In this document: positions 29,610-47,578 of the stretch, piece after piece
How the letters are laid out: every line of letters begins with the position of its first letter
Position numbering within the stretch: the first letter of the stretch is position 1
Source of the DNA: Saccharothrix carnea
Lineage (GTDB): Bacteria > Actinomycetota > Actinomycetes > Mycobacteriales > Pseudonocardiaceae
Reading direction: 5' to 3'
Assembly (NCBI RefSeq): GCF_003014735.1
Contig: NZ_PYAX01000008.1
Location: 186,001 to 250,000, forward strand
DNA length: 64,000 nt
Notes under the pieces: model-generated
The model's database searches: none
What the model was told of the DNA's origin: nothing
What the model saw: only the letters and a program-made list of their open reading frames with translations
Position numbers and translations under genes: made by a program

Positions 29610-30631
29610 CGCACGTCTCCCTGGCTCTGATGCACCGGCCGGCCGAACCCGAACCGGTGCCACCGTCCCACTTCACGCGGCGCGAGCGGACCCCACGTGC
29701 CGCGCCCCTCCGCGACCGCCGCCACGAACTCGGCCAACGCCTCCCGCGGCGCGTGCCGTGGTTCCCACCCCAACGCCCTGATCCGCGAGCAGTCCACAAG
29801 GGACGCCTGATCCGCCAGCCGCAGCCACCCGGGGTGTACGGGCTGCACGCCCAGCCGCCACGTCGGCCACGCCACCGCCTGCAGCACCGGCAACGGCACC
29901 GGCACCAGGAACCCGCCGAACACCGACGCCAGCTCACCCGCGCCCATCGGCGGGTCGCCGGCCACGTTGAACGCACCACCGGCCCGATGCGCCAGGACCA
30001 CCCGGATCGCCCGCGCCACGTCCTCCGCGTGCACGACCTGCGCCCGCAACCTCCGCCACAACGGCACCGGCAGCCACCGCCGCCCCAGCACCCGGGCCGG
30101 CAGCACAGGGCTCAGCACCCACCGGGCCACCTCGCCCCCCGCGTCCGGCTGCACGATCGCGCAGGGCCGCACCACCGCCACCCCGGCCCGGCCGGTGACC
30201 ATCCGCTCCAGCTCGGCCTTCTGCGCGCTGTACGCACTACCCGGCACCCCGCCGCACGGCCACTCCTCGTCCACCGGACCGGCCGAGGGCGTGTACGCCG
30301 CCACCGACGACGTCACCACGACGTGCGGCACACCGGCGCGTTCCGCCGCACGCAGCACGTGCGCGCTACCGGTGATGTTGGTCCGCCGCATGTCGGGCTC
30401 ACCCGGCGTGGGCTGCACCGCCCACGCCAGGTGCACCACCGCGTCCGCACCGGCGAACGCCCTGCTCAACACCACCTCGGCGGCCGGCGCACCCACATCG
30501 CACGTCACCCAACCAGGTGAACGCACGGGGATCCGTCGGGCGATTCCGACCACCGAGTCGCCCGCATCCGCGAGCACCCGGCGCAGGGCCGTCCCCACGT
30601 TGCCGCTGGCACCCGTGACGACGACCCTCAT
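29606..30631 (-). CDS. NAD-dependent epimerase/dehydratase (extended SDR)
   Basis: 341 aa. GASGNVGTALRRVL at residues 7-20 is the TGxxGxxG nucleotide motif; VVTSSVAAYT holds the catalytic Ser and SAYSAQKAELER the YxxxK pair (Y about 167, K about 171). DPPMGAGELASVFGGF is typical of the extended family. It is coupled by a 4-bp overlap to the desaturase-like enzyme, so the two probably act on one substrate. Confidence 0.87.
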   Translation of the reverse strand: MRVVVTGASGNVGTALRRVLADAGDSVVGIARRIPVRSPGWVTCDVGAPAAEVVLSRAFAGADAVVHLAWAVQPTPGEPDMRRTNITGSAHVLRAAERAGVPHVVVTSSVAAYTPSAGPVDEEWPCGGVPGSAYSAQKAELERMVTGRAGVAVVRPCAIVQPDAGGEVARWVLSPVLPARVLGRRWLPVPLWRRLRAQVVHAEDVARAIRVVLAHRAGGAFNVAGDPPMGAGELASVFGGFLVPVPLPVLQAVAWPTWRLGVQPVHPGWLRLADQASLVDCSRIRALGWEPRHAPREALAEFVAAVAEGRGTWGPLAPREVGRWHRFGFGRPVHQSQGDVR

Positions 30632-30646
30632 GGCCGCCGGGTACCC

Positions 30647-32965
30647 CTACCGGGCCCCGCCAAGCCCCGCGCGCCGCAGCGCCTCGGCCATCGCGCCGTT
30701 CGCCGGCGGACGCTCCTGCTGGCGCGGCTTGCCACCGCCGCCACCGCGCTGCCCGCCACCACGCTGCCCACGCTGACCGTCACGCTGCTGCTCCCGCGGC
30801 GGCTTGCGGCCCGGCTCGTCCTCCAGCCGCAACGTCAACCCGATCCGCTTGCGCGGGATGTCGACCTCCAGCACCTTCACCCGCACCACGTCACCGGACT
30901 TCACCACGTCCCGCGGGTCCTTGACGTAGGTGTTGGACAGCGCCGAGATGTGCACCAGACCGTCCTGGTGCACGCCGACGTCCACGAACGCGCCGAACGC
31001 GGCCACGTTCGTCACCACGCCCTCCAGCACCATGCCGGGCTTGAGGTCGGCGATCTTCTCGACGCCCTCGGCGAACGCCGCGGTCTTGAACGCGGGCCGC
31101 GGGTCGCGCCCCGGCTTCTCCAGCTCGCGCAGGATGTCGGTGACGGTCGGCAGGCCGAACGTGTCGTCCACGAAGTCGTCCGGCCGCAACGACTTCAGCA
31201 CCGCGGTGTTGCCGATCAGCTGCTCCGAGCCCGCGCGCTCCTGCATCCGGCGCACCACCGGGTACGCCTCGGGGTGCACGGCGGAGGCGTCCAGCGGGTC
31301 GTCGCCGTTGGGGATGCGCAGGAAGCCCGCGCACTGCTCGAACGCCTTCGGGCCCAGCCGCGCCACGTCCTTCAACGCCCGCCGCGAGCGGAACGGGCCG
31401 TTGCTGTCGCGGTGCTGCACGATGTTCTCGGCCAACCCGGCGGTGATGCCGGAGACCCTGGTCAGCAGCGGCACGGACGCCGTGTTCAGGTCGACGCCGA
31501 CAGCGTTCACGCAGTCCTCGACCACCGCGTCCAGCGATTTCGACAGCTTCGACTCGGCCAGGTCGTGCTGGTACTGGCCGACGCCGATCGACTTCGGGTC
31601 GATCTTCACCAGCTCGGCCAGCGGGTCCTGCAACCGGCGCGCGATGGACACCGCGCCGCGCAGCGACACGTCCATCCCGGGCAGCTCGGCCGACGCGAAC
31701 GCCGACGCCGAGTACACCGACGCGCCCGCCTCCGACACCACGGCCTTGGTCAGCTTCAGCTCGGGGTGCCGCTTGAGCAGGTCGCCCGCCAGCTTGTCGG
31801 TCTCCCGCGACGCGGTGCCGTTGCCGATGGCGATCAGGTCCACGGCGTGCTTCTTCGCCAGCACGGCCAGCTTGGCGATCGACTCGTCCCACCGGTTCGC
31901 GGGCACGTGCGGGTAGATCACGTCGGTGTCGACGACCTTGCCGGTCGCGTCGACCACGGCCACCTTCACGCCGGTGCGGAAACCGGGGTCCAGGCCCATC
32001 GTGGCCCGGGTGCCCGCGGGCGCGGCCAGCAGCAGGTCGCGCAGGTTCGACGCGAACACCTTCACGGCCTCGTCCTCGGCGAACGCCCGCAGCCGGGACC
32101 GCAGGTCGATGCCCAGGTGCACCAGGATCCGGGTCCGCCACGCCCAGCGGACCGTGTCACCCAGCCAGCGGTCGGCCGGGCGGCCCTGGTTGTCGACCCC
32201 GAACCGGGACGCGATGCGCGCCTCGTAGCCGGTCGGCTCGTCCTCGTCGGCCGGGTCGAACTGGAGCTCCAGCACCTCTTCCTTCTCGCCGCGCAGCAGC
32301 GCGAGGATGCGGTGCGAGGGCAGCTTGGTGAACGGCTCGGAGAAGTCGAAGTAGTCGGCGAACTTCGCGCCGTCCTCCTCCTTGCCCTCCCGGACCTTGG
32401 AGGCGAGCCGGCCGCGGGTCCACATGCGTTCGCGCAGCTCACCGATGAGGTCGCCGTCCTCGCCGAACCGCTCGACCAGGATGGCCCGCGCGCCCAGCAA
32501 CGCGGCGGCGACGTCGGCGACCTCTTCGGTCACGTACGCCTTCGCCACCTCCTGCGGGTCCTGCGTCGGGTCGGCCAGCAGGCCGTCGGCGAGCGGTTCC
32601 AGGCCCTGCTCGCGGGCGATCTGCGCCTTGGTCCGCCGCTTCGGCTTGAACGGCAGGTAGAGGTCCTCCAGCCGGGCCTTGGAGTCGGCGGCCAGGATCG
32701 AGGCCTCCAGCGCGTCGTCCAGCTTGCCCTGCGACCGGATGGACTCCAGCACAGCCGCCCGGCGTTCCTCCAGCTCACGCAGGTAGCCCAGGCGCTCCTC
32801 CAGAGTGCGCAGCTGGGTGTCGTCGAGCGCGCCGGTCGCTTCCTTGCGGTAGCGGGCGATGAAGGGAACGGTGGAACCACCGTCGAGCAGGTCGACGGCG
32901 GCGCTGACCTGCCCGGCCCGCACCCCGAGCTCGTCGGCGATCCTCTGGTGAATGGCTGTGGTCAC
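30647..32965 (-). CDS. tex: Tex family RNA-binding transcription accessory protein
   Basis: 772 aa, full Tex length, from GTG 32965 ([20 protein letters not shown]). In order: N-terminal helical domain with [19 protein letters not shown], a YqgF/RNase H-like domain ([22 protein letters not shown]), helix-hairpin-helix repeats ([22 protein letters not shown]), and a C-terminal S1 domain ([31 protein letters not shown]). A Gly/Arg/Gln-rich basic tail ([20 protein letters not shown]) adds to RNA affinity. Housekeeping gene; no operon partner apparent. Confidence 0.95.
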
Positions 32966-33068
32966 AGCGAGCCATTGTGCCCTGCCCGCCGGGCCACGTT
33001 CGGGCACCCCGACCCGGTCGGCCCGCCGCGGCGCTGCTCCGACCGGATCAACCCCCGTCACCGCGCCG

Positions 33069-33845
33069 TCACATCAGGGTGGTGAGGACGGCGACGTCCG
33101 ACTCGTCGCCCGGCAGGTACTTCACCCGGACCACCATGCCGCGCTGCACCTGCCGCACCGACATCGGCGGCAGCTTCTTGTCCTGCGTCACGTCGAACGC
33201 GGTGCCGTCCGGGCGGGTCACGCGCAGGCTCAGCCGCAGGGCCGACCGCCCGTCCGGGGTCTGGCCGGTGGGGGTCATGTCCAGCACGACGGCGGTGGCG
33301 TCCACGCCCTCCTCGGTGATGCGCAGCTGGTGCGGCGTCAGGAAACCCTTGGCCACGTAAACGCGGTCGAGGGCGGCCTGCAGCTCGTGCGGCGGCGCGT
33401 CGGTGGCGAGCACCGCCCGGCCGTCCGACAGGTAGCGGACCGGCAGGATCGCCCCCGGCTGCACCAGGGACAGCTCGGTGATGTCCACGACCTGCCGCGC
33501 GGTGGTCGGGAACGTGCGGCCGTCCGCCGTGTCGACCTCCAGCCGGATGTCCAGCTGCGGCTGGTCGTTGACCGACAGGCCGGTCCGCGCGACGCCGACC
33601 ACCGTGCCCATGCCGATCGGCGCGCCGCGGAACTCCTTCGGCACCCCGCCGGTCAGGGCCGCGAGGCCGCCACCGAGGACGTTGCCCAGCGAGAACAGCG
33701 TCGGCACCACGGACAGCAGGATGATCGGGCCCACCAGCCAGCCGTTCAGCCAGGCGGACACGTCGTCACCCGCCAGCCCGCCCGCGACCCAGGTCGCGGT
33801 GAGGGCGAGTCCGGCGGTGAGGCCGAGCCAGGGGAGCACCTTCAC
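33069..33845 (-). CDS. Uncharacterised membrane protein, two N-terminal TM helices
   Basis: 258 aa from GTG 33845, with AAAGGA upstream; the longer reading frame before it is the shadow of the neighbouring gene. Two hydrophobic helices (about 4-26 and 35-63) are followed by two beta-rich segments of similar layout ([23 protein letters not shown] and [22 protein letters not shown]), suggesting a duplicated extracytoplasmic domain that recalls DUF3592-like proteins. It lies 37 bp after the PA2928-like gene and is probably cotranscribed. Confidence 0.6.
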
Positions 33846-33882
33846 GGTCTTGTCCTTTCGGAAGAGGTCAGCTGGGAAGAGG

Positions 33883-34980
33883 TCAGCGGTGGGAGCCGAA
33901 GAAGTCGGCCAGGCCGACGCCGAGAGGCACGACCCGGCCGTCACCGCGGGCCGCGGCGAGCACCTCGCCCGCCGCGAGGGCGGTGACGCCGTCCGGGCCG
34001 ACGAGGGCGCGGTCCACCCGGGCGTCCACCGCCAACGTGGCCGTGACCTGCCCGGTGGCCAGCGAGACCAGGCTGAGCGCGACACCGGGGTCGTTCACCG
34101 AGCGCTGGTGCTCGACCAGCACGTGCCCGGTGGCGGCGGCGACCGCGGTCACGCCGTCGACCACCAGCCGGGCGCCGTGGAACGCGGTGTGGCCCACCGG
34201 GATCTCGCGGCCGTCCGCCGTGACGCGGACCAGCACGCTGCCCGGCGTGCCGTTCGGCGCCTGCCGCAGCGCGATCCGCTCGGTCCCGGCGTTCAGCGCC
34301 GCTTCCACACCGGTCGCGGAGGTCGGCGCGCCGGGGCCGCGCTGCACGGAGAGCCGACCCGACCAGGCCGCGGCGGTGGCCGGGTCGACCGGGACGGCCA
34401 TCACCTCGTCCAGCGCGATCGCCAACACCTCTCCGCCTGCGTTCATGGCCATCACGTGGCGGCTCTCGGGGTCGTACGCATAGGCGGTCCGGACTGCGGC
34501 GAACGCGTCACCGAGCCCCGGCACCTCCGAGCCCTCGGCGACCACCGCACCGTCCGCCAACGCGACGATCACGAGCCCCGAGTCGGTGGCGAGGTAGGCG
34601 TGCCGCTGCCCGGCGGCCAGCACCGACGCCTCCCAGATCAGCTGGTCGGACAGCTGCGTGTCCCACAGCACGTCGCCGGTGGCCGGATCGGTCGCCGCCA
34701 GCCGCACCTGGAACAGGTCCTGCGTCAGCAGCTGGAACATGCCCCGCGCGCCGTGCCGCGAGTAGGGCGCCAGCACCACGTCCCGCCCGTCGACCTCGGC
34801 GAACGCGAACCCGGCCTGCACCTCGACATCCGGCTCGGGCGAGGCCGCGTAGGAGCCGCCGAAGAACAGCAGCCCGAACAGCACCAGCGGCAGCAGCGCC
34901 AGCGGCAGGACGCGGCGGCGAGCGGGCGACGGCGTCGCGTAGGGCAGCACCGGCGGGTACTGCGGCGGTGTCTCGTACAT
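33883..34980 (-). CDS. PA2928-family-like membrane-anchored protein
   Basis: 365 aa from ATG 34980, preceded by GGGGGAA. A cytoplasmic Pro/Tyr-rich segment (YETPPQYPPVLPYAT), one helix (about 23-45, LPLALLPLVLFGLLFFGGSYAA), then an extracytoplasmic domain with propeller-like repeats (VRLAATDPATGDVLWDTQL, YLATDSGLVIVALADG, LVSLATGQVTATL). The layout agrees with actinobacterial PA2928-family proteins; function unknown. Divergent from the TPR-CHAT operon across 286 bp. Confidence 0.6.
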   Translation of the reverse strand: MYETPPQYPPVLPYATPSPARRRVLPLALLPLVLFGLLFFGGSYAASPEPDVEVQAGFAFAEVDGRDVVLAPYSRHGARGMFQLLTQDLFQVRLAATDPATGDVLWDTQLSDQLIWEASVLAAGQRHAYLATDSGLVIVALADGAVVAEGSEVPGLGDAFAAVRTAYAYDPESRHVMAMNAGGEVLAIALDEVMAVPVDPATAAAWSGRLSVQRGPGAPTSATGVEAALNAGTERIALRQAPNGTPGSVLVRVTADGREIPVGHTAFHGARLVVDGVTAVAAATGHVLVEHQRSVNDPGVALSLVSLATGQVTATLAVDARVDRALVGPDGVTALAAGEVLAAARGDGRVVPLGVGLADFFGSHR

Positions 34981-35253
34981 CGGTTCCCCCGTGGGTGTCG
35001 TAGGTGGGGGAAGCTTCGGCCGCGCACGTCGCCTACCGGTCCCAGGAACCGGGTTCACGAGTCCGCCACCAGCGGTGATCCGGTTCGGCTGGTGCAGTGA
35101 CCGGGAACCTTTGCCCCGTGTTCCGGCGTTCGGACGGGTGCGTCGGGGTGCCGGCCCCGCGTCCTCATCCTGGTTGGCTGTGGGCGCGGGGCCGGTGCCG
35201 CGAGGCGCCCTGCCGGGCGTCGGAAGACACGGTGAGGTTCCCGATCACTGCAC

Positions 35254-35259
35254 TAGGCT
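35254..35259 (+). promoter_or_regulatory. -10-like TAGGCT box for the leaderless TPR-CHAT operon mRNA
   Basis: TAGGCT ends 7 nt before GTG 35267. The spacing fits the actinobacterial leaderless promoter pattern and fixes the start of the first operon gene. No other promoter is apparent before 41074, because the four genes overlap. Confidence 0.5.
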
Positions 35260-35266
35260 CGGGCCG

Positions 35267-36511
35267 GTGACCATCGCCCGAGCCGCGACGCTGCCGCGCG
35301 GCGCGCTGGTCGCCCGGGCGTGGGCCGGGCTGGGTGACGCGGTCGCGCCGCTGAGCAACGCCGCGGGCCGCCCGCTGACCCGCACGGTGAAGCTGATCCT
35401 CGACCCCCTGGTGCTGCGGCCCGTGCTCAACCCGGAGTTCGCGGCGGGCGCGATCGCCGCCGCGCACGCCGACGCCCTGACGTCCCGCATCGCTGACGCC
35501 GGTCCGGTGCTGGCCGCCACCGCGAGCTGGTTCGTGGTGCTGAAGAAGGAACGCCGCCGCCGGTGGATCACCGAGGGCAACCCGCAGGACCTCTACTTCC
35601 AGCGCTGCTTCGAACTCGCCACCGGGCACGGCGAACCGGGCCCGGACGCCGCCGCCGTCGCCGCGACCGTGCTGGAGGAGGTGCACGGTCGGGAAGGGCC
35701 GACCGTCGCCGCGCTGCGCGATTTCGTGACCGACCCGGCCAACGTCGACGGGCTGACCCGACTGCTGGACACGGCGTGGGCGGACCGCGTCGCACCCGCT
35801 CCGGGGCCGGTGGCGACGTCCTCGTTCCTGGCCACCTGTGCCGTCACCCCCGACCGCGAGGCGTTCCGCGCCCTGGTCACGGGCTTGGCGGGCAGTGCGG
35901 GCGCCGTCGACCTCGACCTGCCCGGCGTGGCGCGGGCCCACGGGCTGACCGACCGCGACCGGCCCGTGCGACCCGGGCTGGGGCGTGGCGCGTCGAAGGC
36001 GAACCTGCCCAAGCCGTTCGACCGGTCGATCCTGGAACGGCTCTTCGCGCCGCTGACCAACGCGTTCCAGCGGGCCGGGCTGGCGGACGTCCCGACGTTG
36101 GTGCGGCGGGAGATCGCCCGGTCGGCCGGGCCGTGGCAGCTCGCCGACGAGGAGAGCCGGCTCGTGGTCGTGCTGGGCCGGGACGCGTCCGCCTCCCTCG
36201 CCGGTGACGCGCCGGTGGGCGGACCGGGCTCCGCCGCGGCCAGGTTGCGGTCGAGGTGGGAACGCGAGGCGTACGTGCACCGGGTGCTGCGGATGCCGTC
36301 GGCCGTGCCGCCGGAGGTCCGCGCGGACGTGCGCGGCGTGCGGGAGGCGTACCTGCGGCGGCTGTGGGTCCGCGTGCACGGCCGGGAGCTGCGCCACGAC
36401 ACCGTGACCGCCGACCAGGTGTGGGACGTGCTGGACGGCGTGCTGCGGTCGGTGATCCTGGACCAGCGCGACCGGTTGCGCTCGGTGCTGGAGCGGGAGG
36501 CCGTGGCGTGA
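35267..36511 (+). CDS. Unrecognised protein A, first gene of the TPR-CHAT operon
   Basis: 414 aa; I do not recognise the family. The sequence is soluble and mostly helical, without signal peptide or TM helix. It includes a basic patch (FVVLKKERRRRWITEG, about residues 90-105), a central GRGASKANLPKPFDRSILERLF and a C-terminal Arg-rich helical part ending RDRLRSVLEREAVA. No Walker, nuclease or protease motif is visible. The stop overlaps the next gene's GTG (GTGA, 36508-36511). Its fixed position ahead of TPR and CHAT genes suggests an adaptor or sensor role; that is inference from context alone. The longer open frame upstream of 35267 is not supported. Confidence 0.6.
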   Translation: MTIARAATLPRGALVARAWAGLGDAVAPLSNAAGRPLTRTVKLILDPLVLRPVLNPEFAAGAIAAAHADALTSRIADAGPVLAATASWFVVLKKERRRRWITEGNPQDLYFQRCFELATGHGEPGPDAAAVAATVLEEVHGREGPTVAALRDFVTDPANVDGLTRLLDTAWADRVAPAPGPVATSSFLATCAVTPDREAFRALVTGLAGSAGAVDLDLPGVARAHGLTDRDRPVRPGLGRGASKANLPKPFDRSILERLFAPLTNAFQRAGLADVPTLVRREIARSAGPWQLADEESRLVVVLGRDASASLAGDAPVGGPGSAAARLRSRWEREAYVHRVLRMPSAVPPEVRADVRGVREAYLRRLWVRVHGRELRHDTVTADQVWDVLDGVLRSVILDQRDRLRSVLEREAVA

Positions 36512-37497
36512 GGGTGACGCGCGGTGCGGACATCGTGGTCGGCGACTGGCCCTCGTCGCCCGAGGTGGTGGCGTTGTTGGAAGGGGCGGGCGCGTCGCTC
36601 GCGTGGGACGTTCTCACCGACGCCGCCGTGCCCGCCGCGCGCGTGCACGATCCGGTGCGTGCGTCCGAGTGGCTGTGGGAGGTCTACGGCGACGCGGCCG
36701 ACGCGATCCTCGGCGGTGCGGAGGAGGTGGACGTGCCGGTGGTCGACTCGCCGATCCGTGACGCGTGCCGCCGGGTGGCGCAGTTGACCTGGGCGCGCGC
36801 GTGGTGGCCGGCGTCGGTGACGGCCGGTGTGCCCGCGTTGGATCCCGTTGTGTTGAACGCGGAACTCGCCGTCGCGGTGTCTACTGTGGAGCATTTGCTG
36901 GACGATCCGGAGGCGGTGGAGCGCGCGCTGGCGGTCGTGTCGCCACCGCTGTCCCAGCCTGGGCTGGCCGAGCAGGTCGCCGCACTCGCCGAGGACTACG
37001 GGGTGGAACTCGCCCCGGCCGAGGCGCCGACCCGGTCCGGCTTCGCCTTGGCCGCCGGAGGTGGTGACGGCGTCTCGGGCGTCGCAGCCCTGTCCGGTTC
37101 GTCCAGTGTGGACTGGTCGTTGGTGCCGCACGGCGTGGTCGACGCCGCCGCTCCCGCGCGGTGGGCCGTCGTGCGTCGACAGGGGCGTACGGCCTTGGAG
37201 GTGTCCGTCGTGCCCGGACCGACTCCTCTCGCACGTCTGGCGGCACGGTTCGGTGAGGTCGAGGTGGCGCTGGACGGCCGTGACGCGGCGGGCCGCATCA
37301 CCGGCTCCGCACCGGTGTCGGCGGCGGTGCTGTTGCTGCCACCGGACCGGCGCGTGCTGACCGTGTACGCGCCGGACTTCGCCGAACCCACCCCGCCGGA
37401 CCCGGCCGCCGAGGCACGTCGCGCGGCGATCGTCTCCTACGCCCGGTCGCGGCTCGACTCCCCGACCGCGACCGTGACCGAGCGGACGGCGCGATGA
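36508..37497 (+). CDS. Unrecognised protein B, second gene of the TPR-CHAT operon
   Basis: 329 aa, GTG start overlapping the previous stop. No family recognised. Residues 1-190 look helical and acidic (DIVVGDWPSSPEVVALLEGAG, SEWLWEVYGDAADAILGGAEE); residues 195-300 look beta-rich (SVDWSLVPHGVVDAAAPARWAVVRRQGRTALEVSV, LLPPDRRVLTVYAPDF), which could be a binding domain. No membrane segment or catalytic signature. The stop overlaps the TPR gene start as ATGA (37494-37497). Confidence 0.6.
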   Translation: MRVTRGADIVVGDWPSSPEVVALLEGAGASLAWDVLTDAAVPAARVHDPVRASEWLWEVYGDAADAILGGAEEVDVPVVDSPIRDACRRVAQLTWARAWWPASVTAGVPALDPVVLNAELAVAVSTVEHLLDDPEAVERALAVVSPPLSQPGLAEQVAALAEDYGVELAPAEAPTRSGFALAAGGGDGVSGVAALSGSSSVDWSLVPHGVVDAAAPARWAVVRRQGRTALEVSVVPGPTPLARLAARFGEVEVALDGRDAAGRITGSAPVSAAVLLLPPDRRVLTVYAPDFAEPTPPDPAAEARRAAIVSYARSRLDSPTATVTERTAR

Positions 37498-39899
37498 ACG
37501 ACTGGGCCGAGGCACTCGCCACGTCACCGCCGAGTGATCGCGCGCGGGTCCTGCTGAACCTGGCCCACCTGTCCGATGATCGGCAGCACGCCGTGGACCT
37601 GTTGACCGAGGCGATAGCGGTGGGTGAGGGCCGAACCAGGGTGATCGCCATCGCGTCCCGCGCCGACCTGCTGCCGTGGCTCGACCGGTGGGAGGAGGCG
37701 TGGCAGGACGTCGACCTGGCCTTGGCGGACGCCGACCCGCCCGGTCAGGTGGTGCTGCGCAACACCCGCGTGGGCCTGCTGATGATGGCCGGTCGCCTGG
37801 CGGAGGCGGAGGCGGACGCCCTCGACCTGGTCGACTTGGCGGCCTCGCACGCGCCCGAGTACCTGGAGAACATCTACACCAACCTGGCGCTCCTCGCCGA
37901 CGAGGCCGGTGACCAGCAGCAGGCGTCGACCTACCGGATGCTGTCCGACAATCCCGGCAGACACCCCCTCGGCCCCCGGTGGCTGCGGTTCGTGGAGCTG
38001 AACACCCAGGGCGCGGCACTGCTGGCCTCCGGCAACCGCACCGCCGCCAAAGCCACCTTCACCGCCGCCTACCACGAAGTCATCACAACGTCAGACCCTT
38101 CGGGCACAATAAAAACAGGGGTCCCCTTGGCGGGGACCTCTGCGCAGCAACCGCCAGCCCCGACTGCCGTGCGGCAGGTCGAACTCGCTGCGCAGCAACC
38201 GCCAGCCCCGACTGCCGTGCTGCAGGCTGAGGTCGCTTCGCACCAGCCGCCGGTCGAGACCGCCGTGCAACCGACCGAAACCTCCGGACAGCGCACCCCG
38301 GCGGAGACTGCCGCGCCGCCGGCGGGAACCGCAGCGCAGTGGTCGCCGGCAGAGAACCCAGCGCCACAGCCTGCCGAACCCCCTGCGAGTCGATCACCGG
38401 CCGGAAACCCAACGCCGCAGCCAAGCGGGACCTCGGCCCAGCAGCACCCGCCCGGCGACTCCACGGAACCGACCACTGACATCGAAGCCCTGGTCTGCCG
38501 CGCCGGAGTCGCGGGCAACCTCGCCGGAGTCGCCGATCACCCCGAAGAAGCCGTGCGGTGGAGTACCGAGGCGGTGGAGGCGGCGCGTGGTGCGTTGGCG
38601 CTGGTCGGTGACGCCTACGGGTCGGCCACGGTGCTCGTGAACGCGTTGATCTCCCGCGCCGCCGCACGCCACGCCCAGACCCGGCACCCCGAAGCCCTGA
38701 CCGACCTGGACGGAGCACTCGAAGTGGTGGCTGCCTCGGCCGAAGGCGGTGAGTCGTTAGAAGCCACCATCCGCGCCACCCGCGCCCGCGTGCTCGCGAC
38801 CGGCGGGTGGTTCGCCGAAGCGGCGGAAGAGGGGAGGGTCGCGCTGGACCTCGCCTACACCGCCGCACCCGAGCTGGCCGCGTCCGTCCACCTGACCCTG
38901 GCGGAGGTCACCAGCGCCACCGGTGACCTGCCCGGTGCCGCAGAACACCTCGGCCTGGCCCGCGACCTGAGCGCCGCCACCGGTGACGTCGACGGCGAGA
39001 CCACCGCCCTGCTCAGCTCCGCCCGCCTGGCCTACCTCGCCTCGGACGTCGACCGCGCGGACGCCCTGTACGACGAAGCCGAAGCGCTGATCACCGATGA
39101 CCCGAACCGGCTCCTGGCCTGCCTGAACGGTCGGGCGGCCGTCGAAGTCCTGCGCGGTCGGCCGCACGAGGCGTTGCGGTGCTCGGACCGGGCACTCGCG
39201 CTCCTCACCACCACCACATCCCCCTTGGCGACGCTGGCAGTGCACCAAGTGCGCGGCTCGGCGTTCGAGTCGGCCGGACGGTTCGCCGAGGCCGAGGCCT
39301 GTTACGCCGAGGCGTCGGCGAGGTGCGAGGAGGCCGGGCTGTGGCACGTCGCCCTGGGCATGGCGTGGTGGCGCGCGGACGCCTTGGTGCGCCGGGCCGC
39401 CGCCACGACCGGAAACGAACGACGACAGCTCGGCCGCAAGGCGCTGGACCTGGCACTGCCCGCCGCGTTGGCGTCGGAAGCCGTGCGGCAACGCTTCCCG
39501 CACGGACCCCTCCGCGAACGCTGGGTCGCCCTGGCCTCCGCACCCGCCACCAGGTCGGCGTTCCTGGCCATCCGCGCGGTGGAGGACACGGCGTTGGCGG
39601 CGCAGTACATCGACCACATCGCGGGCGCGGTGTCCCTGCGCGCCGAAAGCACCGCCCCCGTCGAACGCGGTGAGCTGATCGGCCTGCCCGCGCCACCACC
39701 CACCACGACCCACCTGCCCTACGCCGCCGCCGGGTTCGCCACCGGCACCGACCTGTCCTTCCCCGCCGCCGGGTTCGAGCTGCCGCCGAGGGTCAGGCCC
39801 GACCCGGCCGTGCGGACCGCGCTGGACGACTGGATCGACGTGGCCGAACAGCGCTACGGGCTCCCGGTCCGGTCGGAACGGGCGGTGCCGTCGTGGTGA
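37494..39899 (+). CDS. Tetratricopeptide repeat protein with a tandem-repeat linker (third gene, TPR-CHAT operon)
   Basis: 801 aa. Two TPR arrays (about 15-200 and 325-680) show helix pairs such as GRLAEAEADALDLVDLAASH, HPEALTDLDGALEVV, GDLPGAAEHLGLARDLS, ASDVDRADALYDEAEALI and GRFAEAEACYAEASARCEE. Between them lies a Pro/Ala/Thr-rich linker (about 215-315) of about six 16-residue repeats. Codon 422 is TTA (38757-38759). TPR-CHAT pairs in other bacteria form sensor-protease units in which the TPR protein holds and activates the peptidase. It overlaps the CHAT gene by 4 bp. Confidence 0.85.
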   Translation: MNDWAEALATSPPSDRARVLLNLAHLSDDRQHAVDLLTEAIAVGEGRTRVIAIASRADLLPWLDRWEEAWQDVDLALADADPPGQVVLRNTRVGLLMMAGRLAEAEADALDLVDLAASHAPEYLENIYTNLALLADEAGDQQQASTYRMLSDNPGRHPLGPRWLRFVELNTQGAALLASGNRTAAKATFTAAYHEVITTSDPSGTIKTGVPLAGTSAQQPPAPTAVRQVELAAQQPPAPTAVLQAEVASHQPPVETAVQPTETSGQRTPAETAAPPAGTAAQWSPAENPAPQPAEPPASRSPAGNPTPQPSGTSAQQHPPGDSTEPTTDIEALVCRAGVAGNLAGVADHPEEAVRWSTEAVEAARGALALVGDAYGSATVLVNALISRAAARHAQTRHPEALTDLDGALEVVAASAEGGESLEATIRATRARVLATGGWFAEAAEEGRVALDLAYTAAPELAASVHLTLAEVTSATGDLPGAAEHLGLARDLSAATGDVDGETTALLSSARLAYLASDVDRADALYDEAEALITDDPNRLLACLNGRAAVEVLRGRPHEALRCSDRALALLTTTTSPLATLAVHQVRGSAFESAGRFAEAEACYAEASARCEEAGLWHVALGMAWWRADALVRRAAATTGNERRQLGRKALDLALPAALASEAVRQRFPHGPLRERWVALASAPATRSAFLAIRAVEDTALAAQYIDHIAGAVSLRAESTAPVERGELIGLPAPPPTTTHLPYAAAGFATGTDLSFPAAGFELPPRVRPDPAVRTALDDWIDVAEQRYGLPVRSERAVPSW
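38120..38430 (+). repeat. In-frame 48-bp (16-residue) tandem repeats preceded by a hairpin, inside the TPR gene
   Basis: TGCGCAGCAACCGCCAGCCC... recurs at 38141 and 38189 with 32 identical bases (period 48 bp), then decays over four further units to about 38430. Just before it, AATAAAAACA and the hairpin GGTCCCC-TTGGC-GGGGACC (38120-38138) form a low-GC, terminator-like island inside the coding frame. Confidence 0.75.
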
Positions 39900-41074
39900 C
39901 CGTCCAGCTCAAGTTCGTGGACGCGGGCGACCTGTACGTGTCGTGGCGGTGGGAGCACGAACCGGCCGAACCGCGCGTCGTCGTCGTGCCGCGCGAAGTC
40001 GTGCACGACACGCTGGGCGAGTGGGCACGGGCGGTGCCGTTACCGCTGCTGGGGGAGAGCGCCGACGACGCCCTGCGGCGCTCGCTCACACACGGCCCAC
40101 TCGTGGACCACGCCCGTGAACTCGACCTGGCCACCCGGATGGCACGGGCGGTGGTCCCGCACCGGCTGGCGGTCGAGCTGAACTCCTGGCTGGCCCAGGG
40201 CATCCGGCCGCACCTGCGCGTCCAGCCGTCACCGTCGACCGCCCTGGTGCCGTGGGAAGCGCTCCGGATCGACGACGGCCTGCGCGCGGTGCACGACACC
40301 ACCATCTCCGTGCTGCCGCCCGCCACCGTCGCCAACGCCGCGTCACGTCGGCCGACCCCGTTCGATCCGCAAGGGACGGTCGTCGGCGTGCTGGACCCCG
40401 TGGTGCCCGGGTTCGCCGACCACTCCGGCCTGGGCTCGGTGCTCGGCGACCCGCCACCGGAACTGGCCGCGCTGGGCGGCACCCGCCGCGCCGACATCGA
40501 CCGCGACCACCTCGAACGCGCCCTCGCCACCGCCTCGCGCCTGCTCTACGTCGGTCACGTCACCACCGGCGGGCACGGCCTGGACGCCCGGCTGCACCTG
40601 TCCTGCACGGCGGACACCACCGGCCGGGCCGCACCGCTGGGCGCACACCGCCCCCTGACCGCCGCCGACATCGTGCTGGGCCACCGCCCCGGCCCCGTGC
40701 GACCGTGGCGGATACCGTCCCGCGTCGCCCTGGTGGCCTGCGAGAGCGGCGGCGACGTCCGGTTCGCCGAACCGTCCGGCCTGGTGACGGCCATGGTGCA
40801 CGGCGGAGCGGAGCACGTGACGGCGACCAGGTGGACCCTGCCGACCGACGAAGGGCTGCGCCGCCTCGTCCCCGGCTTCCCGCCGACCCCCGTCCTCGCG
40901 CCGACCGTGCTGGCCGTCGACACCGCGCACCGCGCTCCCGACCCGGTGACCGCGCTCAACGACTGGCAACGCGCCACCGCCACCCGGTGGGAGGAAACGG
41001 GCGACCCCACCTGCTCGCCGCTCGTGTGGGCCGCGTTCACCACCACCTGGGCGCCGCGGAGTTGGGACCGGTAG
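39896..41074 (+). CDS. CHAT-domain (caspase-like) peptidase, fourth gene of the TPR-CHAT operon
   Basis: 392 aa from GTG 39896 (GTGA overlap with the TPR stop; GTG 39893 is also possible). Residues 1-120 are a beta-rich lead-in; TALVPWEALRIDDG (about 115-128) is the usual CHAT entry. The catalytic pair is visible: His221 in RLLYVGHVTTGG and Cys282 in VALVACESGGDVRF, in the spacing of caspase/CHAT clan CD peptidases. VTAMVHGGAEHVTATRWTLP is the conserved segment after the Cys. Codon 49 is TTA (40040-40042). The likely activity is cleavage of a host or regulator protein on activation by the TPR partner; this is inferred from the family. Confidence 0.88.
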   Translation: MTVQLKFVDAGDLYVSWRWEHEPAEPRVVVVPREVVHDTLGEWARAVPLPLLGESADDALRRSLTHGPLVDHARELDLATRMARAVVPHRLAVELNSWLAQGIRPHLRVQPSPSTALVPWEALRIDDGLRAVHDTTISVLPPATVANAASRRPTPFDPQGTVVGVLDPVVPGFADHSGLGSVLGDPPPELAALGGTRRADIDRDHLERALATASRLLYVGHVTTGGHGLDARLHLSCTADTTGRAAPLGAHRPLTAADIVLGHRPGPVRPWRIPSRVALVACESGGDVRFAEPSGLVTAMVHGGAEHVTATRWTLPTDEGLRRLVPGFPPTPVLAPTVLAVDTAHRAPDPVTALNDWQRATATRWEETGDPTCSPLVWAAFTTTWAPRSWDR

Positions 41075-41119
41075 GGGCCGCGCGACTCGTAGCGTCCCGC
41101 CCGGAAACGGGGTGAGGAC

Positions 41120-41584
41120 ATGTTCGGGACGAGGGATGAAGCGCTGTACGCGAGGGTCCTGGAGCTGGAAGGCCGCGTCGAGCGGCTGACCGGCCTGCTG
41201 GGCAAGCTGTCCGACGACGAGGAGCGGTACGCGCGGCTGCACGAGCTGGCCGAGCGCGCGGACGGCGCCCTGCTGTCGTTGGAGGGACGGGCCGCCGCGG
41301 CGGGCATCGGCGAGCCGCGTTTCCAGGCGACACTGGACACGATCTACCGGGCCAGGACGTTCGGTTACGTGGCCGTGTACTTCGTCGGCGGGCGGACGGC
41401 ACGCGTGCGGTTGCTGGTCGGGCCCGAGAGCCCACCTACCGTGAGCGTCGGCTGCGCCGACTCCAGCAGCGACCTCAACTCCTACATCGGCGGCGTCGTG
41501 CGCCCCGGCGAGTTCTGGACGGCCTCCACCCCGCGACCAGGTCAGAAGACCGGCTTCGAGTGCGTCTTCACACCCCTGTTCTGA
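41120..41584 (+). CDS. Small protein with N-terminal coiled coil, downstream of the CHAT gene
   Basis: 154 aa, ATG with GGTGAGG upstream. Residues 5-65 are a heptad-rich coiled coil (LYARVLELEGRVERLTGLLGKLSDDEERY); the C-terminal half is beta-rich (FGYVAVYFVGGRTARVRLLVG, TPRPGQKTGFECVFTPLF). No family recognised. It starts 45 bp after the CHAT stop on the same strand and could be a fifth member or a substrate of the system, or unrelated. Confidence 0.6.
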   Translation: MFGTRDEALYARVLELEGRVERLTGLLGKLSDDEERYARLHELAERADGALLSLEGRAAAAGIGEPRFQATLDTIYRARTFGYVAVYFVGGRTARVRLLVGPESPPTVSVGCADSSSDLNSYIGGVVRPGEFWTASTPRPGQKTGFECVFTPLF

Positions 41585-41586
41585 GG

Positions 41587-41618
41587 TTGAAACCGGTACC
41601 GCGGTACGGGCTTACCGT
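41587..41618 (+). promoter_or_regulatory. MerR-type promoter/operator with long spacer
   Basis: TTGAAA (41587-41592) and TACCGT (41613-41618) are 20 bp apart, an overlong spacer typical of MerR-controlled promoters. The spacer is filled by the dyad CCGGTACCGCGGTACGGG (41593-41610), symmetric apart from one pair. ATG 41625 follows the -10 box by 6 nt, so the mRNA is probably leaderless. Confidence 0.7.
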
Positions 41619-41624
41619 GGGCAC

Positions 41625-41963
41625 ATGAGCACAGACGACCCTCTGATGACGTGGGCGCCGGCGGCGTGCACCCTGCCGACCGCAGAACGCCCGCTGCGGG
41701 AAGCGGAGTTCGACGAGCTGTTCGGCACGTCGTCGGCCGGCGTGGAGCGCCCGGACCCGACCCACCTGCGCATCGCCCTCGACCCGACGCCCGAGGTGGC
41801 GGCACGGGCGGCGGCGCTGGCCGTGCGGGAGACCCGGTGCTGCTCGTTCTTCACGTTCGCCGTCGTGGCGTCGGCGGGACAGGTGCGGCTCGACGTCACC
41901 GTCACGGACGCGCAGGTGGACGTGCTCGACGCACTGCAGCGGCGCGCGGGGGAGGCGGCGTGA
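41625..41963 (+). CDS. Small Cys-containing protein, partner of the MerR regulator
   Basis: 112 aa. Notable is the adjacent Cys pair in AVRETRCCSFFTFAVVAS (about residues 68-85) followed by a beta-strand and a DVLDAL helix. Small proteins with this CCxFF pattern often precede MerR genes in actinobacteria, in my recollection, and may bind metal or an electrophile. It is driven by the MerR-type promoter and coupled to merR-like gene by a GTGA overlap (41960-41963). Confidence 0.65.
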   Translation: MSTDDPLMTWAPAACTLPTAERPLREAEFDELFGTSSAGVERPDPTHLRIALDPTPEVAARAAALAVRETRCCSFFTFAVVASAGQVRLDVTVTDAQVDVLDALQRRAGEAA

Positions 41964-42379
41964 CCGGGCTGCGCAGCGGCAGGCTCGCCGAGGCCGCCGG
42001 GGTGAACCACCAGACGTTGCGCTACTACGAACGGCGTGGCCTGCTGGCCGAACCGGCGCGGACGCCCGGCGGCCACCGCCTCTACCCGCCGGAAGCGCTC
42101 ACCGTGCTGCGGATGATCAAGGCCGCGAAACGGCTCGGGTTCACGCTGGAGGAGATCGCCGACCTGCTCGACGCCCGCCGCCGGCGCCGCGAACCGGGTT
42201 TGGCCGCCCGGGTCGCGGTCAAGCTCACCGAGGTGGAGGCCAGGATCGCGGACCTGGAGACCGTTCGCGACACCCTGCTCAGCGCGCTCGACCTCGGCTG
42301 CGACGACCTGGCCGCCTGCGCGCACGCGCCGTCCTGCCCCATCGCGTTCAACGACGACGCGAGCTGCGGGACGTGCTGA
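41960..42379 (+). CDS. MerR family transcriptional regulator with C-terminal Cys cluster
   Basis: 139 aa, GTG start. HTH region SGRLAEAAGVNHQTLRYYERRGLLAEP, then RLYPPEALTVLRMIKAAKRLGFTLEEIADLL and a dimerisation helix. The C-terminus LGCDDLAACAHAPSCPIAF...CGTC has five cysteines, as in metal- or thiol-responsive MerR proteins (MerR/ZntR/SoxR-like), but the spacing does not let me name the inducer. It probably controls its own operon through the dyad at 41593-41610. Confidence 0.88.
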   Translation: MTGLRSGRLAEAAGVNHQTLRYYERRGLLAEPARTPGGHRLYPPEALTVLRMIKAAKRLGFTLEEIADLLDARRRRREPGLAARVAVKLTEVEARIADLETVRDTLLSALDLGCDDLAACAHAPSCPIAFNDDASCGTC

Positions 42380-42413
42380 GCCCGCGCGGCCGAGGTGTGG
42401 GACCCTGCCCGGC

Positions 42414-43214
42414 ATGCGTTGCGGGATCGTGCTGCCGTTCTTCGACGCGCCGGACGTGGCGTCGTGCGCGGCGTTGGCGGAGGAGTGCGGCTGGGACGGC
42501 GTGTTCCTGGCCGAGGCGGTGTGGGGTGTCGACGCGTGGGTGGCGTTGACGGCGGCGGCGATGCGCACGTCGTCGGTGCGGCTGGGCACGATGCTGACGC
42601 CGCTGCCCCGGTTCAAGCCGTGGGACGTGGCGTCCAAGGCGGCGACGCTGGACCGGTTGTCCGGCGGGCGCGTGCAGCTGTCGGTGGGGTTGGGCGCGCT
42701 GCACCCCGGCTGGACCGCGTTCGAGCGCGGGACCAGCCGGGCCGAGCGGGCGTTGCTGCTGGACGAGGGGCTGGCGGTGTACGACGGCCTGATGCGCGGC
42801 CGGCCCTTCTCGTTCCGCGGACAGCGCTACGACGTGCGGGAAACCGACTTCTTCCCACCTCCGCCGCCCGTTCAGCGGCCTCGCGTGCCGGTGTGGGTGG
42901 TGGGCGCGTTCGGCCGTGCCCGGTCGATGCGGCGTGCCGTGGCGTGGGACGGCCTCCTGCCGAACGTGATCGACGGCGGCGAGGCGCGCGGTGCGGCGGA
43001 CCCGGCCGAACTGGCGGCCGTCGTGGCGCAGGCACGGGAGTTCCGCACCTCGCTCGGGCTGCCGTGGGACGGCTTCGACGTGATCGCCGAGGGCAAGGCG
43101 ACCAGCGTCGACGAGTGGGCCGACGCGGGCGCGACCTGGTGGATCGAGTCCGACTGGGAGACCACGGTCGACGCCGTGCGCGCCCGGATCACGGCCGGAC
43201 CGCCGTCGTCCTAG
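42414..43214 (+). CDS. LLM class flavin-dependent oxidoreductase
   Basis: 266 aa. Luciferase-like monooxygenase fold: CGIVLPFFDAPDVASCAALAEECGWDGVFLAE, RLGTMLTPLPRFKPWDVASKAATLDRLSGGRVQLSVGLGALHPGW, and the terminal PVWVVGAFGRARSMRRAV. Substrate unknown. It is shorter than the usual 300-350 aa, as in the compact F420/FMN members. Its stop codon shares a CTAG with the stop of the convergent kinase-like gene (43211-43214). Confidence 0.87.
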   Translation: MRCGIVLPFFDAPDVASCAALAEECGWDGVFLAEAVWGVDAWVALTAAAMRTSSVRLGTMLTPLPRFKPWDVASKAATLDRLSGGRVQLSVGLGALHPGWTAFERGTSRAERALLLDEGLAVYDGLMRGRPFSFRGQRYDVRETDFFPPPPPVQRPRVPVWVVGAFGRARSMRRAVAWDGLLPNVIDGGEARGAADPAELAAVVAQAREFRTSLGLPWDGFDVIAEGKATSVDEWADAGATWWIESDWETTVDAVRARITAGPPSS

Positions 43215-43744
43215 AGCGCGGCCAGGACCTGGTCCGCCAGTTGCTCCGGGGTGTGCAGGTCGCCCCGGAGGACCAGCGTGTCGGCGGGCAGGGTGTTCCG
43301 TGCGGCGACGCAGCGGTCGACGTTGCGGAGGCGGAAGGCGCGGGCGTCGGCGTCGGCCTGGAGGTTGTGCGGGTCCAGGACCTGGGCGTTGATGCGGCGG
43401 CGCAGCTCGTCCGGCGGCACGTCGAGGAAGACGTGCAGCAGGGGGACGTCCGCGGCGGCGAGGAGCTTGAAGATCTCCTCCCGGTAGGCCGTCTCGACCA
43501 GGGTCATGGGTGTGATCAGGTGCTGCCCGTACTCCCGGTGCAGGGTCGCGGCGAACTCGGCGGTGAGCGTGCGCCACGGAGGCATGTCCTGGAAGTCGCC
43601 GCTCTCCGGCAGGGGAGCCCACTTCCGCAGCAGGTAGCCGACGTACTCGGGGTCGAACGACAGGGCGTCCGGCAGCCGCCGACCCAGTTCCTCGGCCAAC
43701 GTCGTCTTGCCCGCGCCGAACGCGCCGTTGATCCACACGATCAT
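43211..43744 (-). CDS. TmrB-like P-loop kinase/ATPase
   Basis: 177 aa from ATG 43744. MIVWINGAFGAGKTTLAEEL is a Walker A that follows the TmrB (tunicamycin resistance) opening almost word for word; FDPEYVGYLLR, DFQDMPPWRTLTAEF and ITPMTLVETAYREEIF also follow that family. TACTGT (43752-43757, minus strand) ends 7 nt upstream, suggesting a leaderless mRNA. TmrB-like proteins can give resistance to nucleoside inhibitors of UDP-HexNAc transferases, but most homologues are untested, so resistance is only possible here. Confidence 0.82.
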   Translation of the reverse strand: MIVWINGAFGAGKTTLAEELGRRLPDALSFDPEYVGYLLRKWAPLPESGDFQDMPPWRTLTAEFAATLHREYGQHLITPMTLVETAYREEIFKLLAAADVPLLHVFLDVPPDELRRRINAQVLDPHNLQADADARAFRLRNVDRCVAARNTLPADTLVLRGDLHTPEQLADQVLAAL

Positions 43745-43811
43745 GTTCACCACAGTAGGTGACTCCGGGCCCCCGTCCGGGCGGGGACGCGGCCGGCACA
43801 TACTGACCGGT

Positions 43812-44708
43812 ATGACCACACTCGACCACTGGGGCGGGACGAGCCGGCACGTCGACCTCGACGGCGCTCCGGTGCACTACGTCGACTTCGGCGGCGACGG
43901 CCCGCCGATGGTGCTCGTGCACGGCCTGGGCGGCTCGCACCTGAACTGGTGCCTGCTCGCGCCGCACCTGGTCGACCGGTACCGCGTGCTGGCCGTCGAC
44001 CTGGCCGGGTTCGGGCTCACCCACCCCGAGGGACGTGCCACGACGGTGCCCGCCAACGCGCGGCTGCTGGAACGGTTCCTCGCCGAGGTGGTCGGCGAGC
44101 CGGTGGTGCTCGTCGGCAACTCGATGGGCGGGATGATCGCGATCCTGCACGCCGCCCGCCGTCCCTCGACGGTGACCGCGCTGGCCCTGCTGGACCCGGC
44201 CGTGCCGCTGCCGTTCGGCGTCCGGCTGGACCCGCAGGTGACGGCCGCGTTCGCGATGTACGCCGTGCCGGGGCTGGGGCAGTGGTTCCTGGCGAAGTCG
44301 CGGGCCGGGGTGTCGACGCGACGGCAGGTGAAGCGGGTGCTCAACCTGGTGTGCGCGAACGCGAAGCTCGTGCCGGAGGAGATGGTCCTGGCCTCGATGA
44401 CGTTGCTGGAGCAGCGCGCCGAGATCCCGGGCCTGGACGAGGCGTTCCTGGCGGCGGCGCGGTCGGTCGTGTGGACGGGTGCGACCAAGCGCCGCTACTA
44501 CACGGCGATGAACCGGGTGCGCGTGCCGGTCTACCTGATGTCCGGCGACCAGGACCGCCTGGTCCCCGTGGCCTCTGCTCGCGAAGCCGCCCGCCGCAAC
44601 CCGTCGTGGCGCTTCGAGGTCCTGGACGGCGTCGGCCACGTGCCGCAGCTGGAGGTGCCGGAACTGGTGGCCGAGCGGATCAAGGGCTGGCTGGCGACCC
44701 AGGGCTGA
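43812..44708 (+). CDS. Alpha/beta hydrolase
   Basis: 298 aa from ATG 43812. Oxyanion region MVLVHGLGGSHLNW, nucleophile elbow GNSMGG (Ser104), acid in YLMSGDQDRLVP, catalytic His in GVGHVPQLE. All triad residues are present. Esterase, lipase or epoxide-hydrolase-like; substrate unknown. The 3' end overlaps the DUF397 gene by 29 bp on the opposite strand. Confidence 0.9.
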   Translation: MTTLDHWGGTSRHVDLDGAPVHYVDFGGDGPPMVLVHGLGGSHLNWCLLAPHLVDRYRVLAVDLAGFGLTHPEGRATTVPANARLLERFLAEVVGEPVVLVGNSMGGMIAILHAARRPSTVTALALLDPAVPLPFGVRLDPQVTAAFAMYAVPGLGQWFLAKSRAGVSTRRQVKRVLNLVCANAKLVPEEMVLASMTLLEQRAEIPGLDEAFLAAARSVVWTGATKRRYYTAMNRVRVPVYLMSGDQDRLVPVASAREAARRNPSWRFEVLDGVGHVPQLEVPELVAERIKGWLATQG

Positions 44709-44871
44709 CGAACTTCGCCCAAGCAGAGCGCGGAAAGGACAGCACAGGTCCCGCGGGGTGCTTCGAGTCGCGGACGTCGATCGCTTCGGGCACGAACCTG
44801 ACCTCGACGCAGGCCGGGTTCTCGGCGCTGCGACTGGACTTGAACCAGTCGGTGCGGTGGATCGGGCTCAC
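44680..44871 (-). CDS. DUF397 domain protein
   Basis: 63 aa: TDWFKSSRSAENPACVEVRFVPEAIDVRDSKHPAGPVLSF is the canonical DUF397 pattern (WxKSSxS, CVEV, RDSK). GTG start overlapping the XRE gene stop (GTGA, 44868-44871). Such proteins accompany WhiJ-like regulators in actinomycetes and modulate their DNA binding, often in development. Confidence 0.93.
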   Translation of the reverse strand: MSPIHRTDWFKSSRSAENPACVEVRFVPEAIDVRDSKHPAGPVLSFPRSAWAKFVSPGSPASP

Positions 44872-45731
44872 TCCAACTCCTTGCCGATCTGCTCGATCAG
44901 GCGGAGCGACTCACTCCGGTCGAGCGCGTGATCCATGGCCTGGCTGTGAGCCAGACTGTACTCGCGGATCCGCATGGGTTGATCGATCAGATCGGTGGTC
45001 GACACCGTTTCCTGCCACACCAGGTCGGGTAGCCGGCCGCCCGCGAAACCGAGGATGTAGAAGGTCGATCCGCCGATGGCGTTGTGGTAGTCGGCGCTGA
45101 ACGGCACGATCCGCACGTCGAGCGTGTCCGGGTGTTGGTCGATCTTGGCAGCCAGGTGCCTGAGCTGTGCCGCCATCACCTCCCGGCCCCCGACCATCTG
45201 CCGCAGGCCCGACTCGGCGATCACCGTGGTGAGCCGGATCGGGTCCCCGCCCTCGAGCCGCTGTTGCCGCTTCATCCTCACCTCGACCCGGCGGTTCGCC
45301 TCGGCCAGCCGGATGCTCGGCGCGCCACCGTTCATGATGGCCATGGCGTAGTCCTCGGTCTGGAGCAGGCTGGTGATCAGGCCTGCGCTGTAGGCGCGAA
45401 TGCTCTCGGCGCCCGCCTCGAAGCCGAAGTACCTCAACACCTCGGCGCTGAACATCGCGGAGTACGGGCTCCACCAGGCGCGTTTGCCCGCCGCCTCGCG
45501 GAGTTGCTGCAGTTCCCCGACTTCGTCCTCGTCGAAGTCCAGCACGGCGGCGAGTTCGGCCAGCTTGCGGGCGTTGATCTTGACGCGGCCGGTCTCGACA
45601 CCCGACACGAACGACTGGCCGGTGTGGATGGCTTTCGCCGCCGAAGCCGCCGTGATGTCCATGAGCTCGCGGCGCTCGCGCAGGCGCAATCCCAGTTCCC
45701 AGGCCGCGACGGTGGGTGAAGTGAAGGCCAT
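44868..45731 (-). CDS. XRE family regulator with DUF5753 (WhiJ-like)
   Basis: 287 aa. Residues 10-70 are an HTH_31-type domain (LGLRLRERRELMDITAASAAKAIHTGQSFVSGVETGRVKINARKLAELAAVL); residues 105-280 match DUF5753, including ESIRAYSAGLITSLLQTEDYA and VIAESGLRQMVGG. It is one of the many paralogous WhiJ/AbaA-type modules of actinomycetes. The 18-bp palindrome 24 bp upstream of its ATG is the likely autoregulatory operator, shared with the divergent small gene. Confidence 0.93.
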   Translation of the reverse strand: MAFTSPTVAAWELGLRLRERRELMDITAASAAKAIHTGQSFVSGVETGRVKINARKLAELAAVLDFDEDEVGELQQLREAAGKRAWWSPYSAMFSAEVLRYFGFEAGAESIRAYSAGLITSLLQTEDYAMAIMNGGAPSIRLAEANRRVEVRMKRQQRLEGGDPIRLTTVIAESGLRQMVGGREVMAAQLRHLAAKIDQHPDTLDVRIVPFSADYHNAIGGSTFYILGFAGGRLPDLVWQETVSTTDLIDQPMRIREYSLAHSQAMDHALDRSESLRLIEQIGKELE

Positions 45732-45754
45732 GCCGCCCCAATCGGGTGAAGTAG

Positions 45755-45772
45755 GTTGCTGATATCACCAAC
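45755..45772. promoter_or_regulatory. 18-bp operator candidate GTTGCTGATATCACCAAC
   Basis: Eight of nine base pairs are symmetric around TGATATCA. It lies between the ATG of the XRE gene (45731) and the start of the divergent small gene (45822), and so can control both. Confidence 0.6.
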
Positions 45773-45821
45773 TCTGGCCACCATGGTAGCAGGGGATGTT
45801 GACCGGGTGTGGGAGGCAGAG

Positions 45822-46043
45822 ATGGGTCGGGCGCAGATTCACCTGTGGGCGCAGGTGCCAGGGGATGTGTGGATCAACTACGAGGTGGAACCGGGAGGGG
45901 GTGCGGTGGTGTTCAAGATCGGTCAGGACGTGGAGCTGTACGTGGATCCCAAGGCCCTGACCAAGATCAGCGAGGCGGCGGCGGAGGCGGTCGAGCTGGC
46001 GGGCGCGGTTGCGGCCGATTCGCTCAGCCCGCGGTCGAGGTGA
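45822..46043 (+). CDS. Small acidic protein divergent from the XRE/DUF397 pair
   Basis: 73 aa from ATG 45822, chosen for GGGAGG 7 nt upstream; in-frame starts at 45756 and 45783 lack one. One beta-rich core (IHLWAQVPGDVWINYEVEPGGGAVVFKIGQDVELYVDPKAL) and a C-terminal Ala/Glu helix. No family recognised. It sits where WhiJ-type loci often have a third small gene. The last 20 bp overlap the convergent acyltransferase gene. Confidence 0.6.
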   Translation: MGRAQIHLWAQVPGDVWINYEVEPGGGAVVFKIGQDVELYVDPKALTKISEAAAEAVELAGAVAADSLSPRSR

Positions 46044-47412: not shown

Positions 47413-47578
47413 CGACCGACCGTAGGCCCGTGCCGTCCCAACGGTCCAGCGCGGCTCGGAAGCAGCCCTGATACGGCACCACGCAAGAATCGAGACTCAC
47501 GGGTACTGGCGGAATCAACCGGCACGAAACATCATGGTTACCTGGGGCTCGCGCTCGACGCGGAGCGGGGGAGGGGCC

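Follow-up and report, generated by a model that had tools for sequence, protein, structure and literature searches.

The DNA analysed here, a 64,000-nt stretch of the Saccharothrix carnea genome (the window), holds a four-gene operon whose products, two proteins without a family name (A and B), a TPR protein and a CHAT peptidase, form a conserved, dedicated unit. As judged from sequence comparisons, this unit probably works like a partner-gated TPR-CHAT protease, yet it appears to belong to neither the CATRA nor the Craspase family. A divergently transcribed membrane/surface arm accompanies it, and our tentative reading is that the whole is an envelope-linked module.

The features concerned are collected in Table 1. 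The four genes are joined by 4-bp overlaps at 36508 (A/B), 37494 (B/TPR) and 39896 (TPR/CHAT), as the first-pass annotation had described, and the TANNNT box that it had noticed ahead of the first start is a TAGGCT separated by 7 nt from the GTG of A. All 16 relatives inspected have a TA[CG]G[CG]T box with a GTG 6–7 nt further on; in mononucleotide shuffles of their 145-nt stretches the arrangement turned up in 0.8%. Gene A is thus probably leaderless.

Table 1. Location of the operon, the divergent arm and two CATRA loci of the same genome
Feature	Location	Strand	Description
Gene M	33069..33845	-	Divergent, 258 aa; DUF3592-type domains, with membrane segment(s) close to the N terminus
Gene P	33883..34980	-	Divergent, 365 aa; membrane helix at the N terminus and an exported part resembling a propeller (weak PQQ_2 match)
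TAGGCT box and GTG start of A	35254..35269	+	Likely leaderless promoter; arrangement common to 16/16 relatives inspected
Gene A	35267..36511	+	Basic (pI 9.9), all-helical protein of 414 aa, GTG start; unnamed family
Gene B	36508..37497	+	Acidic (pI 4.6) alpha/beta protein of 329 aa with a beta-sandwich at the C terminus (about 190-297); unnamed family
TPR protein gene	37494..39899	+	801 aa; Pro/Ala/Gln-rich linker built partly of 16-aa repeats
CHAT protease gene	39896..41074	+	GTG start (further GTG at 39893); His221, Cys282
CATRA locus L274 (outside the window)	C15:80585-81836		CATRA-C and CATASP over cut-off, beside a CHAT gene
CATRA locus L275 (outside the window)	C9:103299-104523		CATRA-C and CATASP over cut-off, beside a CHAT gene

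With one genome scanned per species, 256 relatives of A were obtained; the best 80 of these, all from Actinomycetota, serve as the named loci below. B, TPR and CHAT are all present in 72 of the 75 named loci that extend at least 4.5 kb past A; L114, L115 and L146 lack the full set. Across 249 genomes of the family, A was matched in 49 (one match, in G048, is marginal at 9e-4) and B in 47. Forty-six of the latter also carry A, and the 47th, G127, holds a remnant with stops. The CHAT subfamily, defined at E ≤ 1e-40, occurs in 45 of the 249 genomes. Every one of these also carries A, and in 41 the two genes are within 6 kb of each other. In G066 and G108 the two genes are on different contigs, one of them at a contig edge, and in G114 and G027 CHAT is found far from A, elsewhere in the genome. 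Four genomes with A have no CHAT at this threshold (G023, G031, G048 and G132, the last with A and B only). In the genomes sampled this CHAT subfamily never occurs without A, an obligate association that lets the relation between A, B and the protease be tested directly. The first-pass annotation had counted A and B homologues scattered without TPR-CHAT genes, or matching ordinary metabolic families, as evidence against its proposal; what the neighbourhood survey revealed instead were dedicated partners of TPR-CHAT, and Pfam scans of the members placed neither A nor B in a metabolic family.

The third protein, annotated from the start as an 801-aa TPR protein, matches Pfam TPR_12 (1.3e-14). 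The fourth matches the CHAT model (PF12770) at 2.2e-8 and 34.3 bits, exceeding the curated cut-off of 24, and 22 of 24 members of its subfamily match the same model at E ≤ 0.01. CHAT peptidases have a catalytic motif of histidine and cysteine. The two residues assigned to this role at first pass, His221 and Cys282, are conserved without exception in the 73 relatives, which makes 74 of 74 aligned sequences with the window included. A PDB search with the CHAT profile gave four chance-like matches (E 0.81-0.88), and a search with the single CHAT sequence gave none up to E = 10. TPR and CHAT are predicted, by an approximate gene caller, to form one protein in 11 loci (L100-L104, L158, L164, L168, L175, L180 and L185). 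Because they are fused in some genomes, we take the two proteins to work as a single TPR-CHAT protease.

The TPR gene varies in several respects. Three in-frame tandem 48-nt copies lie at 38140-38283, within the Pro/Ala/Gln-rich linker, and the protein is shorter in the three nearest relatives (669-735 aa compared with 801 in the window). Two consecutive TPR genes (835-948 aa and 568-574 aa) precede CHAT in the Streptomyces loci L134, L137 and L144. The whole genome (8.9 Mb) contains 23 CHAT matches, many in proteins of 800-2000 aa.

Proteins A and B had been described as lacking a recognizable domain, a description that agrees with the Pfam and NCBIfam scans and with comparisons to solved folds. 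Neither they nor the coiled-coil product of gene D, which follows the operon at 41120, had a Pfam match up to E = 1, and scans of all three with Pfam, NCBIfam and PADLOC returned nothing credible; the best stray matches were perm_prefix_2 (0.007) and PF17102 (0.026), each to one A member, and TraF_2 (0.038) to one B member. No PDB sequence matched the A and B profiles up to E = 1. Structure models of A (pLDDT 88.9, pTM 0.70) and B (pLDDT 90.6, pTM 0.85) gave nothing significant in a Foldseek comparison with solved structures (best E 0.26 and 0.13 respectively). VIA-align paired A at best with terpene synthase helices (Z 6.1, 61 residues) and B with an isoamylase N-terminal sandwich (Z 5.8, 92 residues), scores that we do not take as kinship because a common arrangement alone suffices to produce them; equally, missing fold matches prove nothing. 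Gene D was rejected as a member of the module, contrary to the first-pass proposal, since it is confined to close relatives (4 of the 80 named loci and 3 of 40 family loci, partly the same genomes).

In A, 36 positions are conserved in at least 95 of 97 sequences. Eight arginines and two lysines are among them, and these suggest that A binds an anionic partner. The median pI is 9.1 for A (77 named loci) and 4.5 for B (62 loci). However, mycobacterial A has a median pI of 7.0 (17 loci) and is not basic, so a charge pairing between A and B is not general.

The earlier account did not include the divergent genes P and M, which go with the operon. We counted the arm in the 78 named loci (from the best 80 of 256 relatives) that extend at least 3.5 kb before A, and M, P and/or a lipoprotein gene is divergent beside A in 61 of them. 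The arm consists of M and P in 30 loci, M and the lipoprotein in 15, M alone in eight, P alone in six, the lipoprotein alone in one, M with a 140-aa protein in one and the 140-aa protein alone in 12; five loci have none of these. P of the window matches PQQ_2 only at E = 0.057, whereas a Microbacterium relative reaches 2e-4. DUF3592 was matched in nine of 28 M members, the window's own M being without a match. The 140-aa protein may share a domain with M (E 4.8e-4, probability 32% against the second domain of M); no membrane helix was seen in it on inspection. The lipoprotein is of the 19-kDa type, LpqH family (Myco_19_kDa; 4.9e-23 in Nocardia and 5.2e-31 in a mycobacterium). Lipoproteins of this type are a well-known group of surface antigens whose role in the bacterium is unclear. 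Despite a differing gene order, the Myco_19_kDa gene adjoins the module both in Nocardia-type loci (L162, L166, L171 and others) and in the mycobacterial loci L240-L256.

Our preferred interpretation, to which we give a little less than an even chance, is that the operon and its arm constitute an envelope-linked, sensor-gated protease module. In this model A and B would sit together in a cytoplasmic complex, either keeping TPR-CHAT inactive or serving as its first substrate. A disturbance of the envelope would be sensed by M together with P or the lipoprotein, and the signal would reach TPR-CHAT via the TPR scaffold. The activated protease, by cleaving A, B, M or some other target, might then trigger a stress or altruistic-death response. 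The linkage of the four genes (72/75), the invariant dyad, the TPR-CHAT fusions, the membrane and exported neighbours and the charge contrast of A and B are consistent with such a model. Against it stand the five of 78 named loci without any M, P, lipoprotein or 140-aa partner upstream, the 12 loci whose only partner is the 140-aa protein without a membrane helix, the weak DUF3592 and propeller assignments of the window's own proteins, the distant CHAT genes of G027 and G114, and the mycobacterial A proteins that are not basic. The first-pass proposal that A and B are the sensor, inhibitor or substrate of a proteolytic module stands as far as dedicated TPR-CHAT partners and an invariant dyad go, but its CATRA kinship and the inclusion of D do not.

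A bolder version, which we consider unlikely, would be a surveillance system that spans the envelope and occurs across Actinomycetota, with A-B-TPR-CHAT as its cytoplasmic half. In such a system P or an LpqH-family antigen (the latter in Nocardia and mycobacteria) and M would inform the protease of the state of the envelope, and A and B, for which there is no known fold relative, would be its inhibitor or substrate. If this were true, LpqH-type lipoproteins would gain a signalling partner.

The distribution of the module bears on two other explanations. In a sample of 396 genomes of the phylum, A was found in 11, the window's own and ten others of the same order, and it is present in ten of 17 congeners. 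It also occurs on six plasmid records (five Streptomyces, one Nocardia). A tree of 97 A sequences was built from 78 of the 80 named loci (L174 and L176 were dropped for length), 13 of 20 mycobacterial loci, five of the genus g16 and the window. Genera are scattered in it: g16 appears at two positions far apart, Streptomyces and Microbacterium each fall into two groups, and Actinophytocola into four. Because some inner supports are near zero, only well-supported separations count. The spread of the module is patchy and, to judge from the tree, partly horizontal. The window's site lies between Tex and an alpha/beta hydrolase. Its congener G143 has about 125 bp there and carries the cassette elsewhere in the genome, G232 has about 850 bp, and the congener G127 (L260; window equivalent 33883-37497) retains broken remnants of B and P, a decayed copy.

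Patchy presence (A in 49 of the 249 family genomes), horizontal spread, an empty site and a decayed copy in sister species and the plasmid-borne copies would all suit a cytoplasmic anti-phage or abortive-infection system, in which TPR-CHAT is released when A and/or B detect a phage product, as happens in Craspase after RNA recognition, with the membrane genes as accessories or effectors. We regard this as possible, although doubtful. The role of TPR-CHAT (Csx29) with Cas7-11 in Craspase, as given in PMC9729208, PMC10028731 and PMC9935389, favours it, and the likeness extends to a TPR part joined to a CHAT protease, fused in the 11 related loci described above. In the window, however, TPR and CHAT are separate genes, and A and B take the place of sensor and substrate. 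The region 28000-48000 contains no CRISPR-like array, in agreement with the first-pass annotation; its sole three-copy family is the 48-nt repeat inside the TPR gene. No PADLOC model matches A, B, TPR, CHAT or D. Craspase is excluded by these two results, and the second also counts against the anti-phage reading. Among 90 flanking proteins from 32 loci, 19 PADLOC families were matched at E ≤ 1e-5, with at most five members each and mostly ATPase- or kinase-like names, so that no clear defence island emerges from this comparison, which has no control set. No copy of A was found in 50,697 phage records, and the 18 pattern matches of one viral-contig scan were not confirmed; a phage or provirus origin was rejected on these grounds.

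A further argument against mobile defence comes from the genus of G286. The ribosomal protein bL20 encoded beside its locus L240 is an almost exact match to chain 5o60_R, and 3zqj is the entry nearest to UvrA; from what we take to be the source organisms of these structures, we infer that the genus is Mycobacterium. A is carried by 97 of 148 sampled species' genomes of this genus (90 of 136 of high quality). Twenty mycobacterial loci were fetched, two of them picked for weak A matches. All four genes are present in 18, in the order TPR-CHAT-(M)-A-B, with M in 15 of the 20 loci and the lipoprotein in 17. Twelve loci share one site with a LysX-like neighbour (named by eye). The idea of a single mycobacterial site proved wrong, as the other eight fall in three other shared settings. 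Stable chromosomal sites shared in this way are no less compatible with a cellular function than with a mobile set of defence genes.

A cellular protease outside any conflict, with CHAT processing a surface or membrane protein or a regulator during envelope maintenance or development, is a reading to which we give slightly less weight than to phage defence. The shared mycobacterial sites and the tie to LpqH-family lipoproteins speak for it, as do the conserved leaderless-type start box and the presence of the module in the unicellular Microbacterium too. Against this, A is absent from 200 of the 249 family genomes and from 385 of the 396 genomes of the phylum sample, so that the module is not a general need, and horizontal transfer also sits poorly with such a role.

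CATRA ternary systems were reportedly described by Burroughs and Aravind in 2020, and they too combine a CHAT/caspase-superfamily protease, TPR-like parts and dedicated partners in multicellular bacteria. The partners here, however, are A and B, with the membrane/surface arm alongside. CATRA-C (PF20270) and the small protein CATASP (PF20271), which is presumably a component of the CATRA system, exceed their cut-offs beside CHAT genes at two other places in this genome and are absent from the locus on contig C8. The two CATRA loci, on C15 and C9, are systems in their own right and useful in-genome controls. No CATRA model matched 28 A and 30 B members up to E = 0.1, and comparison of the A and B profiles with the C15 CATRA protein gave a probability of 0.1%. 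The kinship of A and B with CATRA suggested at first pass therefore found no support, and with D lacking a Pfam match as well, membership was rejected. That A and B are CATRA-N and CATRA-C domains which have diverged too far to be recognized, as the similar company of CHAT with TPR and the two CATRA loci of the same genome might suggest, is very improbable given these searches and the missing CATASP.

The envelope-linked module that we prefer also resembles the EACC1/EACC2-caspase systems, which, according to PMC7159879 and PMC8195603 (the latter also names the CATRA systems), are membrane-associated, EACC1 being a single-helix partner beside a caspase with variable C-terminal domains. Both place a caspase-superfamily protease near the membrane with a conserved partner. 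The CHAT protein here, in contrast to the EACC systems, carries no variable effector, and its partners A and B are soluble proteins. No homology to EACC emerged when A, B and M were scanned with Pfam.

To our knowledge, few of the bacterial proteases characterized so far are TPR-CHAT proteases, and those that are known either belong with CRISPR or have been predicted from the order of genes. The present unit would add a separate, widespread TPR-CHAT protease with two orphan core families, A and B, carried by many actinobacteria; the tie to 19-kDa-type lipoproteins was unexpected. A literature search, with most subscription journals outside its scope, found no description of the A-B-TPR-CHAT module.

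Compared with three syntenic relatives, the system genes are 75-88% identical, whereas Tex and two further neighbours are 92-96% identical. Faster evolution was dropped as a sign of conflict because other neighbours (43211 and 44868) evolve just as fast. The first of these (43211-43753) encodes a small P-loop kinase-like protein (AAA_33, 9.1e-11) that is kept with the local flank only and not with the module.
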